A stretch of 14,471 bases of DNA from Phycisphaerales bacterium (GTDB lineage Bacteria; Planctomycetota; Phycisphaerae; Tepidisphaerales; Tepidisphaeraceae). How positions within the stretch are numbered: the first letter of the stretch is position 1; each line of letters starts with the position of its first letter. The stretch lies in contig PMAK01000137.1 of the NCBI GenBank assembly GCA_003153655.1, positions 1,470 to 15,940 of the forward strand. The letters are read 5' to 3'. A model generated the notes under the pieces. The model did no database searches, was not told where the DNA came from, and was given only the letters and a program-made list of their open reading frames with translations. This document shows positions 11,281 to 14,466 of the stretch, one piece after another. A program made the position numbers and the translations under genes.

Positions 11281-11553
11281 ATGGCCAGAGAGAAGTACGA
11301 ACGTCGTGAGAAGACCGAGAAGTTTCAGACCTTCAGCCGTCCGAAGGTGAAGATCGCGCGGTGGAGCGCTTCGGGCAAGATGTATATCGACTATAAGGAT
11401 ACAGAGTCGCTGAAGAAGATGGTGAGCAACAACGGGAAGATCCTGGCCCGCAAACGCACCGGAGCGAGCGCGATGGAACAGCGCATGATGGCCCGCGCGG
11501 TTAAGCGGGCGCGATATCTGGCGCTGCTGCCTTATGTGAATGCAACGGCTTAA
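11281..11553 (+). CDS. rpsR: Small ribosomal subunit protein bS18
   Basis: bS18 sits on the 30S platform next to bS6 and binds 16S rRNA. The protein has 90 residues, within the usual range. The core [20 protein letters not shown] (about 36-55) and the signature [20 protein letters not shown] with [10 protein letters not shown] match bS18. The N-terminal 30 residues are highly charged and rich in Lys and Arg. The gene has its own promoter, a GGAG Shine-Dalgarno 9 nt from ATG and its own terminator, so it is monocistronic here. The usual rpsF-ssb-rpsR-rplI neighbours are absent. It lies between the diguanylate cyclase gene and HU. Confidence 0.95.
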
Positions 11554-11581
11554 TTCGATATTCCAATTGCGATAAATGAAG

Positions 11582-11613
11582 AAGCCCATGGACAGCGGTC
11601 CATGGGCTTTTGT
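11582..11613 (+). terminator. Intrinsic terminator of rpsR
   Basis: A perfect 12-bp stem, AAGCCCATGGAC (11582-11593) and GTCCATGGGCTT (11598-11609), has a 4-nt loop AGCG and is followed by TTGTGTTGG. It begins 29 nt after the rpsR stop. The U-tract is short, but the stem is strong. Confidence 0.75.
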
Positions 11614-11641
11614 GTTGGTTTTACAGGGTTTTTCGGGCACG

Positions 11642-11672
11642 AAAAAAAACCGCGAGGTCTTGGACCTCGCGG
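11642..11672 (-). terminator. Intrinsic terminator of the HU gene
   Basis: On the minus strand a perfect 10-bp stem (arms 11672-11663 and 11659-11650, 3-nt loop) is followed by eight T (11649-11642). It lies 46 nt after the HU stop and back-to-back with the rpsR terminator. Confidence 0.88.
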
Positions 11673-11717
11673 CTGTACTGTCAAAAAAATGATTCGAAAG
11701 AGCTTACGTCCCAGGAT

Positions 11718-12035
11718 TTATTTCTTGGGGCCGAGGATGGCGTCCTTCGCTGCCTTGGCGACAGTGAAGCGAACCTTCTTGCTCTTTGGAATAAGCTTTT
11801 CTTTGCCGGCGTCCGGGCCGAAGCGCATGATCATCTTGCGAGCCGGGCGATCGACGAGCTTGAGCTTGCCGAGGCCTGGCAGGGTGAAGACGTTCTTTGC
11901 CTGCTTGTATGCGAGCTCGGCCTGAGCGGCCAGAAAGCCGGTGACCTGCTTCTTGGTAAGACCGGATTTCTCCGCGAGATGGGCGGCAATTTCGGACTTG
12001 GTCATCGACTTGCCACCTGATGCTGATTTAGCCAT
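11718..12035 (-). CDS. HU/IHF-family DNA-binding protein
   Basis: This 105-residue, strongly basic nucleoid protein should bind and bend DNA as a dimer. The helical body (about 11-45) reads MTKSEIAAHLAEKSGLTKKQ and VTGFLAAQAELAYKQ. The beta-saddle follows with FTLPGLGKLKLVDRPARK (about 50-67). The arm usually holding RNP is replaced by MIMRFGPDAGKEKLIPKSKK, with no clear RNP tip, and the C-terminal strand-helix is VRFTVAKAAKDAIL. The N terminus has a short Ser/Gly/Lys lead (MAKSASGGKS). The frame is open upstream to 12137, but AAGGAGA (12051-12045, minus strand) lies 9 nt before the ATG at 12035, which fixes the start. A strong terminator follows. The dyads upstream may be operator sites. It could be HU or a lineage-specific HU-like protein; IHF is less likely. 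Confidence 0.9.
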   Translation of the reverse strand: MAKSASGGKSMTKSEIAAHLAEKSGLTKKQVTGFLAAQAELAYKQAKNVFTLPGLGKLKLVDRPARKMIMRFGPDAGKEKLIPKSKKVRFTVAKAAKDAILGPKK

Positions 12036-12085
12036 ATGGGTGGATCTCCTTCCCTGTTTGTGGAGCCAATAAACTTTGCCCCAGA

Positions 12086-12110
12086 GAGAATTCTCATCCG
12101 AGAGATTCTC
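12086..12110. promoter_or_regulatory. Pair of GAGA-TCTC dyads upstream of HU
   Basis: The 10-bp palindrome GAGAATTCTC (12086-12095) and the related dyad GAGATTCTC (12102-12110) start 16 bp apart, 50-75 bp before the HU start codon. Related half-sites at this distance fit a promoter-proximal operator. This is inference only. Confidence 0.35.
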
Positions 12111-12157
12111 AGTTGGAGCAGCGGTCGGGCCGGGCACTGTGCACGGCTCGTCCGCGA

Positions 12158-12245
12158 ATCACCGGAACATTCCGGCGATGTCTGCTAGAAACTAGCGAGA
12201 TTTCAGGCGAATTCAATGATTCGCGGAGAAAATACTTGGATTTTC
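12158..12245. promoter_or_regulatory. Cluster of four dyads upstream of HU
   Basis: Four inverted repeats lie within 88 bp: ATCACCGGAA-CA-TTCCGGCGAT (12158-12179, one mismatch), GCTAG-AAA-CTAGC (12184-12196), GCGAAT-N6-ATTCGC (12207-12224) and GAAAAT-N6-ATTTTC (12228-12245). The last two have equal geometry and start 21 bp apart, about two helical turns. The segment is 123-210 bp upstream of the HU ATG and downstream of the RNA terminator. It may be a regulatory region or bound by a nucleoid protein; its function is unknown. Confidence 0.35.
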
Positions 12246-12309
12246 CAGCGAATTCTGATTTTCACGACAGGTTTTCCCCAAAAAATTTCTCAAGAGAAAG
12301 AGAAGCGAC

Positions 12310-12341
12310 AAAAAAACCCGCGGCCTGTGTGAGGCCGCGGG
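12310..12341 (-). terminator. Strong intrinsic terminator, minus strand
   Basis: On the minus strand a 10-bp GC-rich stem (arms 12341-12332 and 12326-12317, loop of 5) is followed by seven T (12316-12310). It is one of the best terminators in the window, yet no minus-strand protein gene lies upstream of it, which points to a non-coding transcript. Confidence 0.88.
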
Positions 12342-12512
12342 CATTGAGAATTCCTGCCAGACATTTCGTCAACGAGCAAGACTGCGGGCACAACGCAATC
12401 GGGCTCTGAGGCAGGCGGCCGGCTCTATGGCGCTTTCGCCATAGACCAACATACGCACGCTTGCATCGCGACAAGCGTGGCGTGAATCGTCTGTTCCACT
12501 GGCCTGAGATAT
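12342..12512 (-). ncRNA. Candidate structured non-coding RNA of unknown class
   Basis: Reading the minus strand from about 12512 to the terminator at 12310 gives about 200 nt that can fold into three stable hairpins. The first is an 8-bp stem at 12479-12456. The second is a 9-bp stem with 4-nt loop at 12445-12424, extended by two G-C pairs past a bulge. The third is a 4-bp plus 7-bp stem with an internal loop at 12406-12374. GCCAG (12503-12499, minus strand) can pair with CTGGC (12360-12356) to close the three hairpins into one domain. A weak promoter lies just upstream: TTGTTC (12542-12537), 17 bp, TATCTT (12519-12514). No credible open frame fits. I do not recognise it as tmRNA, RNase P RNA, SRP RNA or a known riboswitch; its length is similar to 6S RNA but the fold is not a rod. 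It could instead be a leader controlling HU. Confidence 0.55.
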
Positions 12513-12514
12513 TA

Positions 12515-12720
12515 AGATATCGAAGAAAAAATGCAAGAACAATCAAACCAAAACAACCTATCGATTTTTTCAGAAAATTGTGTGATTTTTCAATCAAAAA
12601 GGGATCAAAAAGACGCGGAATGATCCGATATTTATCTCCTAACATTATAACTATAAATATCTTACGAACATTAATGATGCGATTTCAGGATTCTCGAGGC
12701 GAGACTCCATAATCTTCTCT
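12515..12720. other. AT-rich gene-free tract
   Basis: The base composition falls sharply compared with the GC-rich genes around it, with many A and T runs (for example around 12521-12600 and 12641-12680). On the minus strand it holds the promoter-like elements of the candidate RNA and a further TATAAT (12649-12644). It may also carry the promoter of the downstream UbiA-family gene. I see no coding frame in it. Confidence 0.5.
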
Positions 12721-12808
12721 GAAAGCGGAAGTCTCTTACTAATTTGCGACAACTGTTTCTATATCTCGCCCCTACCCAGAAGCTGGTTTCTCCGGTTATC
12801 TTCTGGGC

Positions 12809-13834
12809 GTGGCTTCGCTCTCTCAACGATTGCTGCCGGTTTTGCAACTGACTCGAATGGCGCTGGTATTTACCGCCCTGGCGGATAGCGGCTGCGCGCT
12901 CATGCTTTGGGCGAAACAGCAGGTGCAAAGCAACGGGCGGCCGCTGTGGTATCAGCTTGATCCGGCTCAGTGCATCGCGCTGGCGCTGATATCCATCGGG
13001 TTGTATGGATTCGGGATGAGCCTGAACGACATTATCGATCGACGGCGAGATCGGCAGATTTCGCCGCATCGCCCGCTGCCGAGCGGTCGGATTGGACTTG
13101 GAACGGCGCACGTGGTGTGCGCGCTGCTGGCAGTACTGGCGCTTGTCGGTGGGGAAATTTATACGACGGTTGCGCCAAACGCGCGGCTGAGTTTGTGGCT
13201 GGTGATGTTCACCGGAGGTTTGATTGTCTTCTACGATTTCGCGGCGAAGTATCTGGTGCCGCTAGGGCTGATGTCGCTTGGATTGATCCGATTTTTTCAC
13301 GCGACGATCGCCGCCCCATCACTTCCGGTGTTGTGGCATCCGCTGCTGCTGATGAACCATGTCACGATTGTTTCGACGCTGGCGTATCACTGGGAACACA
13401 AGCGGCCGGCGTTGCGCCCGGTGCATTGGTGGTCGGTTTTTCTCGGGCTGGGGACGGTGGATGTTTTGGCGGTTGGGCTTGTGTGGTGGCGACGGCACAA
13501 CTTGATGGAGATTTTGCCGGGCGGAAATCTGACGATTCGTCCGGCGCTGCTCGGGCCGCTGGCGGCGGTGATCGCGTTTGTGATCCTGGCGATTTGGATT
13601 CGGAAGAGCAGCGTTAATTCACGGGCGGCCGGGCGGGCGCTCATGCTTAGCGGGCTGATGTGGCTGATCGTTTATGACGCGAGCTTTGTGGTTGGATTCG
13701 TCGGGGTACCCGAGGGAATCATGATTCTTGGTTTTCTGCCGGTGACGTATGGCGCCGTGATCGTTATGCGCTGGTGGAGCAAGATGATGCTTCTGTCTCA
13801 GAAGCCCGAGTTTAAAAGGGTGGAGACGATGTAG
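12809..13834 (+). CDS. UbiA-family prenyltransferase-like membrane protein
   Basis: The protein has 341 residues and about eight hydrophobic helices, so it is an integral inner-membrane protein. The first aspartate-rich motif of the family is intact: N73-D-I-I-D77-R-R-R-D81, followed by ISPHRPLPSGR (84-94), which binds the Mg2+-diphosphate of the prenyl donor. The second motif (DxxxD) is not seen; the expected region reads YHWEHKRP (193-200), so catalysis or substrate may differ from UbiA/MenA. YDFAAKYL (142-149) resembles the conserved YDxxxK segment. The start is GTG 12809, because RLLPVLQLTRMALVFTALAD before the next Met (12857) fits the family; no good Shine-Dalgarno is visible. The substrate is unknown. 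The EboC-type subgroup and quinone, heme or lipid prenylation are possible. It is convergent with ppa, whose product removes the diphosphate such enzymes release. Confidence 0.82.
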   Translation: MASLSQRLLPVLQLTRMALVFTALADSGCALMLWAKQQVQSNGRPLWYQLDPAQCIALALISIGLYGFGMSLNDIIDRRRDRQISPHRPLPSGRIGLGTAHVVCALLAVLALVGGEIYTTVAPNARLSLWLVMFTGGLIVFYDFAAKYLVPLGLMSLGLIRFFHATIAAPSLPVLWHPLLLMNHVTIVSTLAYHWEHKRPALRPVHWWSVFLGLGTVDVLAVGLVWWRRHNLMEILPGGNLTIRPALLGPLAAVIAFVILAIWIRKSSVNSRAAGRALMLSGLMWLIVYDASFVVGFVGVPEGIMILGFLPVTYGAVIVMRWWSKMMLLSQKPEFKRVETM

Positions 13835-13919
13835 TGCCGAATGCCAAGTGCCAAGTGCCGAATGAAAAGCGGCATCCCTGACCTTTCACTCGGCACTTGG
13901 CATTCGGCATTCGGCACTT
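13833..13919. repeat. Heptad-built inverted repeat between convergent ubiA-like gene and ppa
   Basis: The right arm is four perfect 7-mers: GGCACTT (13892), GGCATTC (13899), GGCATTC (13906) and GGCACTT (13913). The left arm carries the complement in units AAGTGCC and GAATGCC (13832-13864). Arms of about 36 nt (13833-13869 and 13883-13918) pair with about three mismatches and a one-base bulge around a 13-nt loop. The repeat begins inside the TAG of the upstream gene and stops one base before the ppa stop codon, filling the gap. It may act as a bidirectional terminator or transcript-end stabiliser, although it has no T-run. Confidence 0.8.
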
Positions 13920-13920
13920 C

Positions 13921-14466
13921 TTATTTGAATCCTTTTCGGCGCTGCTTGCTGTAGCGGAGTAACGCGTCTTCTATGATCGGGTAGGCCATCTTCGCCGGCT
14001 CGATTTCGTCTACTTCCACCACTTTGCCTTCGAGTTGTTTGTAATCCTGGAAGAAGCGGCGGAGCATGGTCAGGCGGTGCGGGGGGATTTCCTTGGCTTC
14101 GCGATAGATGCTGAATTCGGGATCTTCGGTGGCTACGCCGATGATTTTGTGGTCTTTTTTTCCGCCGTCGAGCATGGTCATCAGGCCAATGGTGCGAACG
14201 ACGGGGATGAGGGTCAGGGGCACAACGGGCTCCTGGCAAAGGACCAGGACGTCGAGTGGATCATCATCCTGGGCGAGGGTTTGGGGGATGAAGCCGTAGT
14301 TTGCGGGATAATAGACGGCGGAGTAGAGGACGCGATCAAGCTTGATCAGGCCGCTTCGCTTGTCCAGTTCGTATTTAACGCTGGAGCCAAAAGGGATTTC
14401 GATGATGGCTGAGAACTCGTTTGGGATGTTCTCGCCGGGGGTAACGTCATGCCAAGGGTGAATCAT
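13921..14466 (-). CDS. ppa: Soluble inorganic pyrophosphatase (family I)
   Basis: The cytosolic enzyme hydrolyses diphosphate to two phosphates and pulls biosynthetic reactions forward. The 181-residue protein has normal length for bacterial family I. It begins [11 protein letters not shown], the usual N-terminal form. The conserved [14 protein letters not shown] precedes the signature DDDPLDVLV (about 66-74), whose aspartates bind Mg2+. [18 protein letters not shown] follows, with the catalytic Asp-Lys region, and the C-terminal helix holds [11 protein letters not shown]. The ATG lies 5 bases from the window edge, so the promoter and ribosome-binding site cannot be seen. The gene is convergent with the UbiA-like gene across a heptad hairpin. 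Confidence 0.96.

Follow-up and report, generated by a model that had tools for sequence, protein, structure and literature searches.

A candidate small RNA gene with its own terminator in the gap between the HU and UbiA genes of a Phycisphaerales bacterium

A 14,471-nucleotide (nt) stretch of a Phycisphaerales bacterium draft genome (4.65 Mb, 88% complete; contig PMAK01000137.1, here C8, positions 1470–15940), hereafter called the window, contains a gap between the genes for an HU-type DNA-binding protein and a UbiA prenyltransferase. Within this gap, the minus strand encodes a candidate small RNA at 12310–12508, comprising a row of predicted hairpins closed off by an intrinsic terminator, with no gene called across it; the RNA would be ~199 nt long if its presumed 5′ end lies near 12508. 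The arrangement at this locus is real and unusual. Judged from its sequence, the element stands about an even chance of being a small non-coding RNA (ncRNA) gene that is intrinsically terminated and restricted to this genus or species, while a new conserved class of RNA is not supported.

The terminator occupies 12310–12342 of the minus strand and consists of an 11-bp stem, a loop of five, and a T7 tract (A7 on the plus strand, 12310–12316). Its arms, 12317–12326 and 12332–12341, are perfect over 10 nt each, and a flanking G–U pair supplies the eleventh base pair; the first-pass annotation of the window, which had described a 10-bp stem followed by seven T on this strand, was therefore accurate. 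The stem is GC-rich and, folded alone, has a folding z-score of −5.8. A strict scan for terminators was made over 80 stretches of the genome (946,004 of 4,647,106 bases, or 0.95 Mb), in which the window was substituted for its part of C8 and the first 600 bases of each stretch were left out; the terminator finder and the gene caller, the latter relying on codon usage and trained on this genome, are custom and crude scripts. Twenty intergenic terminators were returned, and 14 of these lie within 400 nt of the end of a same-strand gene. The candidate's terminator is one of the other six, the orphans, which are the minority case, and it attains the top score among them (29, with the runner-up at 28). 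For five of the six orphans the nearest upstream gene is on the opposite strand, and for the orphan designated L153 the nearest same-strand gene is 1288 nt upstream.

What precedes the stem also sets the candidate apart: the 165 nt before it have a z-score of −3.7, with values of −1.6 to +1.3 at the other five orphans, making it the sole orphan terminator of the six with a well-folded stretch before it. One of the other five begins 36 nt beyond the 3′ end of the genome's 6S RNA (with a better T tract on the opposite strand), and such terminators can thus occur at real ncRNA genes in this genome. As in small RNA genes, a Rho-independent terminator is found here that is not assignable to a protein gene, and this orphan terminator is a rarer and more telling feature than the fold. 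Elsewhere in the genome, a further strong orphan terminator (L136:19363–19388) lies ~50 nt ahead of a called minus-strand gene and is a possible attenuator.

Upstream of the terminator, the minus strand is predicted to form a weak hairpin H1 of 5 bp (12482–12499), a hairpin H2 of 9 bp with a loop of six (12456–12479), a hairpin H3 of 9+2 bp with a loop of four (12421–12447), and a compound hairpin H4 (12353–12415), in which 6 bp enclose 4+7 bp and a 3-bp side hairpin (z-score −2.6 for 12344–12418). A predicted closing helix of 4 bp (12504–12501/12420–12417), the pairing of which is uncertain, would enclose H1–H3. The minus strand of 12310–12508 folds at −92.8 kcal/mol with a z-score of −5.0, and none of 200 dinucleotide shuffles folds as well; the initial description of hairpins upstream of the terminator is confirmed. 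Without the terminator the z-score of the domain is −3.0, and that of the 5′ half alone is −4.1. The genuine 6S RNA of the same genome, at −3.4, deviates from chance to a degree comparable to the domain without its terminator.

No gene is called from 12137, the end of the caller's HU call, to 12809, and all three open reading frames of the gap score below the Pfam cut-off (best 13.6 bits, with 22.7 needed). On these two results, and with no search made of a large protein database, no protein-coding frame in the gap is credible, in keeping with the earlier remark that no frame fits. A repeat or mobile copy was rejected on the basis of a single blastn match in the organism's own genome; phage and plasmid searches by blastn gave only short chance pieces (E 0.8–0.9), and an exact 24-base scan of viral contigs gave 0 matches. 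The same observations count against the improbable alternative that the domain is what is left of a vanished gene or element, decayed but retaining its old terminator, as the three frames hold no Pfam trace, there is no second copy in the genome, and the phage and plasmid matches amount to chance pieces; moreover, long perfect stems would be unexpected under decay. The remnant explanation does, however, draw support from the setting, since HU and UbiA are non-adjacent in all 19 relatives in which matches to both were found (the two lie on one contig in just two of these relatives, separated by ~40 kb and ~640 kb). The junction is thus peculiar to this genome and may have arisen by rearrangement, and the HU–UbiA neighbourhood is not conserved. 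The GC content of the domain (0.59) is, in addition, nearer to that of the genome bulk (0.57) than to that of the AT-rich flank (0.36).

If the element is a small RNA gene, RNA polymerase would start near 12508–12545, in an AT-rich tract common to the divergent ubiA-like gene, and would transcribe the minus strand over ~165–200 nt before stopping at the GC-rich hairpin and U7 at 12310. The promoter is presumed to lie in this tract (12509–12640, minus strand; GC content 0.36, measured on 12509–12800), with TTGTTC-17-TATCTT at 12542–12514 as one possible example. The product would be a compact multi-hairpin RNA, with the terminator tail shielding its 3′ end and perhaps conferring stability, and it would most likely act as an ordinary regulatory RNA in trans or as a protein-binding RNA.

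Several results weigh against a small RNA gene at this locus. A sigma-70 scan of 11500–12900 returned one site, with 1.0 expected by chance, and the best match to an HU-type promoter upstream of the candidate was equalled by 191 of 500 shuffles; of the AT-rich, promoter-like tract that was originally noted, the AT-richness holds, but the promoter matches do not exceed chance expectation. A z-score of −3 or lower was reached by 20 of 400 intergenic 165-nt tiles drawn at random from 522 in this genome (one strand, 50 shuffles each), and the fold alone is thus not extraordinary (roughly the top 5%). The orphan terminator L153 sits 42 nt beyond the end of an opposite-strand gene, which means that orphan terminators here need not mark ncRNAs; the first-pass premise that a terminator without a gene in front of it signals an ncRNA is still the best reading, but not a necessary one. 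In a blastn set of 61 genomes, in which the source genome is the sole representative of its genus, a 261-nt stretch across the locus matches its own genome only (1/61), leaving 60 relatives without a match. Likewise, R1, a covariance model built from the candidate's single sequence, gives no credible homologue in 197 other genomes of the class, only chance-like matches. Because no homologue was found in the relatives tested, covariation cannot be shown.

The frequency of well-folded tiles and the lack of conservation of the domain in the relatives searched also favour a different explanation, possible if unlikely, in which the terminator serves as an insulator: spurious minus-strand transcripts arising in the ubiA intergenic region would be halted there and kept from running into the HU promoter, and the hairpins would be chance or functionless. 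Consistent with this, blastn of 12200–12700 against 60 HU, UbiA, and 6S loci found, besides the organism's own genome, only 86 nt in one relative (L025) near the HU promoter; this shared block (70% identity) runs from 12284 downward, starting just beyond the terminator and extending towards the HU promoter. An insulator would, however, still require an upstream promoter. Terminators as strong as this one are, furthermore, scarce in the genome and mostly follow genes (the 14 of 20 above), and the long stems within H2–H4 and the z-score of the 5′ half alone also tell against it.

The searches with R1 covered 198 genomes of the class, under stricter filters and with 12 candidates scored per genome, and separately all 26 genomes of the family (equivalent to the order in this set). 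The best match outside the source genome is in G101, at 24.5 bits (E 2.5e-4 per genome, or ~0.05 over 198), and the next are at ~20 bits. The G101 match is the best of several partial matches on model positions 94–156, found in different genomes, that resembled a recurring motif; it aligns without gaps across 63 nt and preserves almost every pair, which counts mildly in favour of homology. Together with six weak or partial matches (L080, L084, L085, L086, L088, and L090), it lies inside stop-free frames of at least 345 codons, and all seven are therefore taken as chance matches in coding sequence. Matches in G022 and G026 were rejected, as they consist mainly of a similar GC-rich terminator hairpin. 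In the 25 other family genomes, R1 reaches at best 19.9 bits (E 0.0056), and in 28 HU and UbiA loci of relatives its best scores are only 15.7 and 9.9 bits.

A control model, R3, built in the same way from the single sequence of this genome's 6S RNA, found 17 of the 25 other family genomes at E ~1e-6 or lower; this control is comparable with the R1 family search and not with the R1 class search. The approach thus recovers a conserved RNA of comparable size but not the candidate. The suggestion of a new RNA class, made at first pass, accordingly finds no support, given that neither blastn nor a covariance model detects conservation while the 6S control worked; among the genomes searched, there were no homologues with the compensatory changes that mark a conserved structured RNA class. 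Since none of the relatives searched was found to share it, the candidate probably represents a small RNA private to a single lineage.

Rfam gives no match at gathering score anywhere in the window, and the element is thus not a known Rfam RNA. The best sub-threshold matches under permissive filters are sX11 (RF02230; 30.0 bits, E 0.0012) and ncS025 (RF02869; 28.4 bits, E 0.0063), both far below their gathering scores of 70 and 46, respectively, and by eye both alignments involve mainly the GC-rich terminator and the U tract. Membership of sX11 was rejected on this difference (30 bits against 70), and a tRNA at the locus was also rejected. RNase P, signal recognition particle (SRP) RNA, and tmRNA, none of which had been recognised at first pass, have no model match in the window, and the genome's copies are on other contigs: RNase P on C165 (258 bits), the small SRP RNA on C274 (54 bits), and tmRNA on C269 (162 bits).

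A diverged 6S-type RNA, the other identity proposed initially, was rejected. The Rfam model for 6S (SsrS) RNA, RF00013, gives no hit at gathering score in the window, nor any up to E 5 in 12100–12800, and the genome's own 6S candidate is found elsewhere, at C67:8177–8403 (L055:1501–1727), with 41.4 bits against the Rfam cut-off of 46.4. Across the 26 family genomes, this model yields candidates at E ≤1 in 10, one of them above cut-off. Eight of the 10 were aligned, leaving aside the two with the poorest E values (0.43 and 0.70), and their consensus is one long end-to-end stem with changes on both sides in 12 of 33 pairs. The lineage 6S model R2, made from these eight, matches 39 of 120 class genomes once each at E ≤0.01 (six of the 39 being training genomes), and in the window it returns nothing up to E 10. 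Because the genome has its own 6S at another locus and no 6S model matches here, the candidate is not 6S. The two resemble each other in being ~200 nt, intergenic, and structured, but 6S forms a single long stem whereas the candidate is a row of side-by-side hairpins. With regard to 6S itself, Rfam names nine of 20 subsequently scanned R2 loci as 6S above cut-off, all in other families of the class; for the Phycisphaerae 6S RNAs (L053–L060 and L185–L208), the Rfam model leaves most of this family under cut-off.

The relation of the candidate to HU turns on a promoter motif of the HU gene itself, TTGAAT-16-TAGTTT, which lies at 12189–12216 on the minus strand, downstream of the terminator and between it and HU. 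Its score was reached by 0 of 500 shuffles, and the motif with its fixed 16-nt spacer (TTGANN-16-TANTTT) recurs ahead of the HU gene in 10 of the 15 stretches scanned from relatives (loci L025–L039). The pattern was written after inspection of the sequences, and the promoter matrix was trained on nine of these 10 promoters after removal of a near-duplicate. HU matches without a usable start codon (L027, L033, L044, and L047) or with identity of 43% or less were dropped before the 15-relative scan, and L037 and L041 have ~100 bases or less upstream of HU. This conserved motif past the terminator means that the domain cannot be taken simply as the leader of HU; the terminator is placed where it would end a separate transcript before the HU promoter.

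An attenuator, in contrast, needs a second, longer HU transcript. Under this explanation, which seems very doubtful, transcripts from above 12508 would either stop at 12310 or continue into HU, and the domain would act as a sensor that tunes HU. The shared strand fits, as does a short complementarity between the HU leader and the linker before the terminator (12340–12356), but the latter is not significant (104 of 500 shuffles are as good). The conserved HU promoter motif, moreover, intervenes, the terminator is ~275 nt from the HU start, and no such domain occurs at the relatives' HU loci examined. The HU leader was also considered as a conserved structured element and rejected: the fold z-scores of 11 leaders, two of which have doubtful start codons, spread between −0.4 and −4.2, too widely for a consistent structure. 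Many HU leaders end, by eye, in a GGAAAGGAGAT-type ribosome-binding stretch.

The same complementarity underlies the least probable proposal, for which only a slim chance is allowed, namely that a genus-specific RNA acts on HU mRNA through pairing of the linker GAAUUCUCA (within 12340–12356) with the HU leader. None of the duplexes of the candidate with HU or ubiA beats its shuffles (104, 402, 429, and 157 of 500 as good). If true, pairing between the RNA and HU mRNA would couple the supply of a chromosome protein to the control of the RNA's promoter.

The genes around the gap were identified by Pfam as ribosomal protein S18 (11281–11553, plus strand), HU (11718–12035, minus strand, with the start codon at 12035), UbiA prenyltransferase (12809–13834, plus strand), and inorganic pyrophosphatase (13921–14466, minus strand). 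Relatives of the UbiA protein in named genomes are mostly from 'Phycisphaerales', 'Phycisphaerae', and 'Humisphaera' drafts, with identity up to 57%. Between the convergent ubiA-like and pyrophosphatase genes, 13833–13918 holds a long inverted repeat composed of TGCCGAATGCC / TGCCAAGTGCC units, its 35-nt arms being 91% complementary. Similar units are found downstream of RNase P (L175), and the 11-mer TGCCGAATGCC is counted 12 times over both strands of the 0.95 Mb, nine times outside called genes. A 13-nt identity, CACTGGCCTGAGA, links 12498–12510 (the start of the RNA candidate, on the opposite strand) with a stretch just upstream of RNase P (L175); the 11-mer at its core is seen two times in the 80 stretches and once more at RNase P, and the identity is probably due to chance.

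Among described systems, the small RNAs of Sinorhizobium meliloti from an orphan-terminator screen, as presented in passages of PMC2573895, are comparable: the candidate is likewise intergenic, with an orphan terminator and no coding frame found. It differs in that its case comes from sequence and that the relatives searched show no conservation of it. The passages of PMC9029176, PMC2573895, and PMC5673643 that were searched contain no description of the candidate element. A single-sequence covariance test, in which 6S was recovered in 17 of 25 genomes and the candidate gave nothing credible, separates housekeeping-like conservation from a private RNA. In the table of one review, eight small RNAs are catalogued for the Planctomycetes–Verrucomicrobia–Chlamydiae group and 345 for Proteobacteria (PMC9029176); if transcribed, the candidate would be a small RNA gene in a bacterial group for which few have been catalogued.
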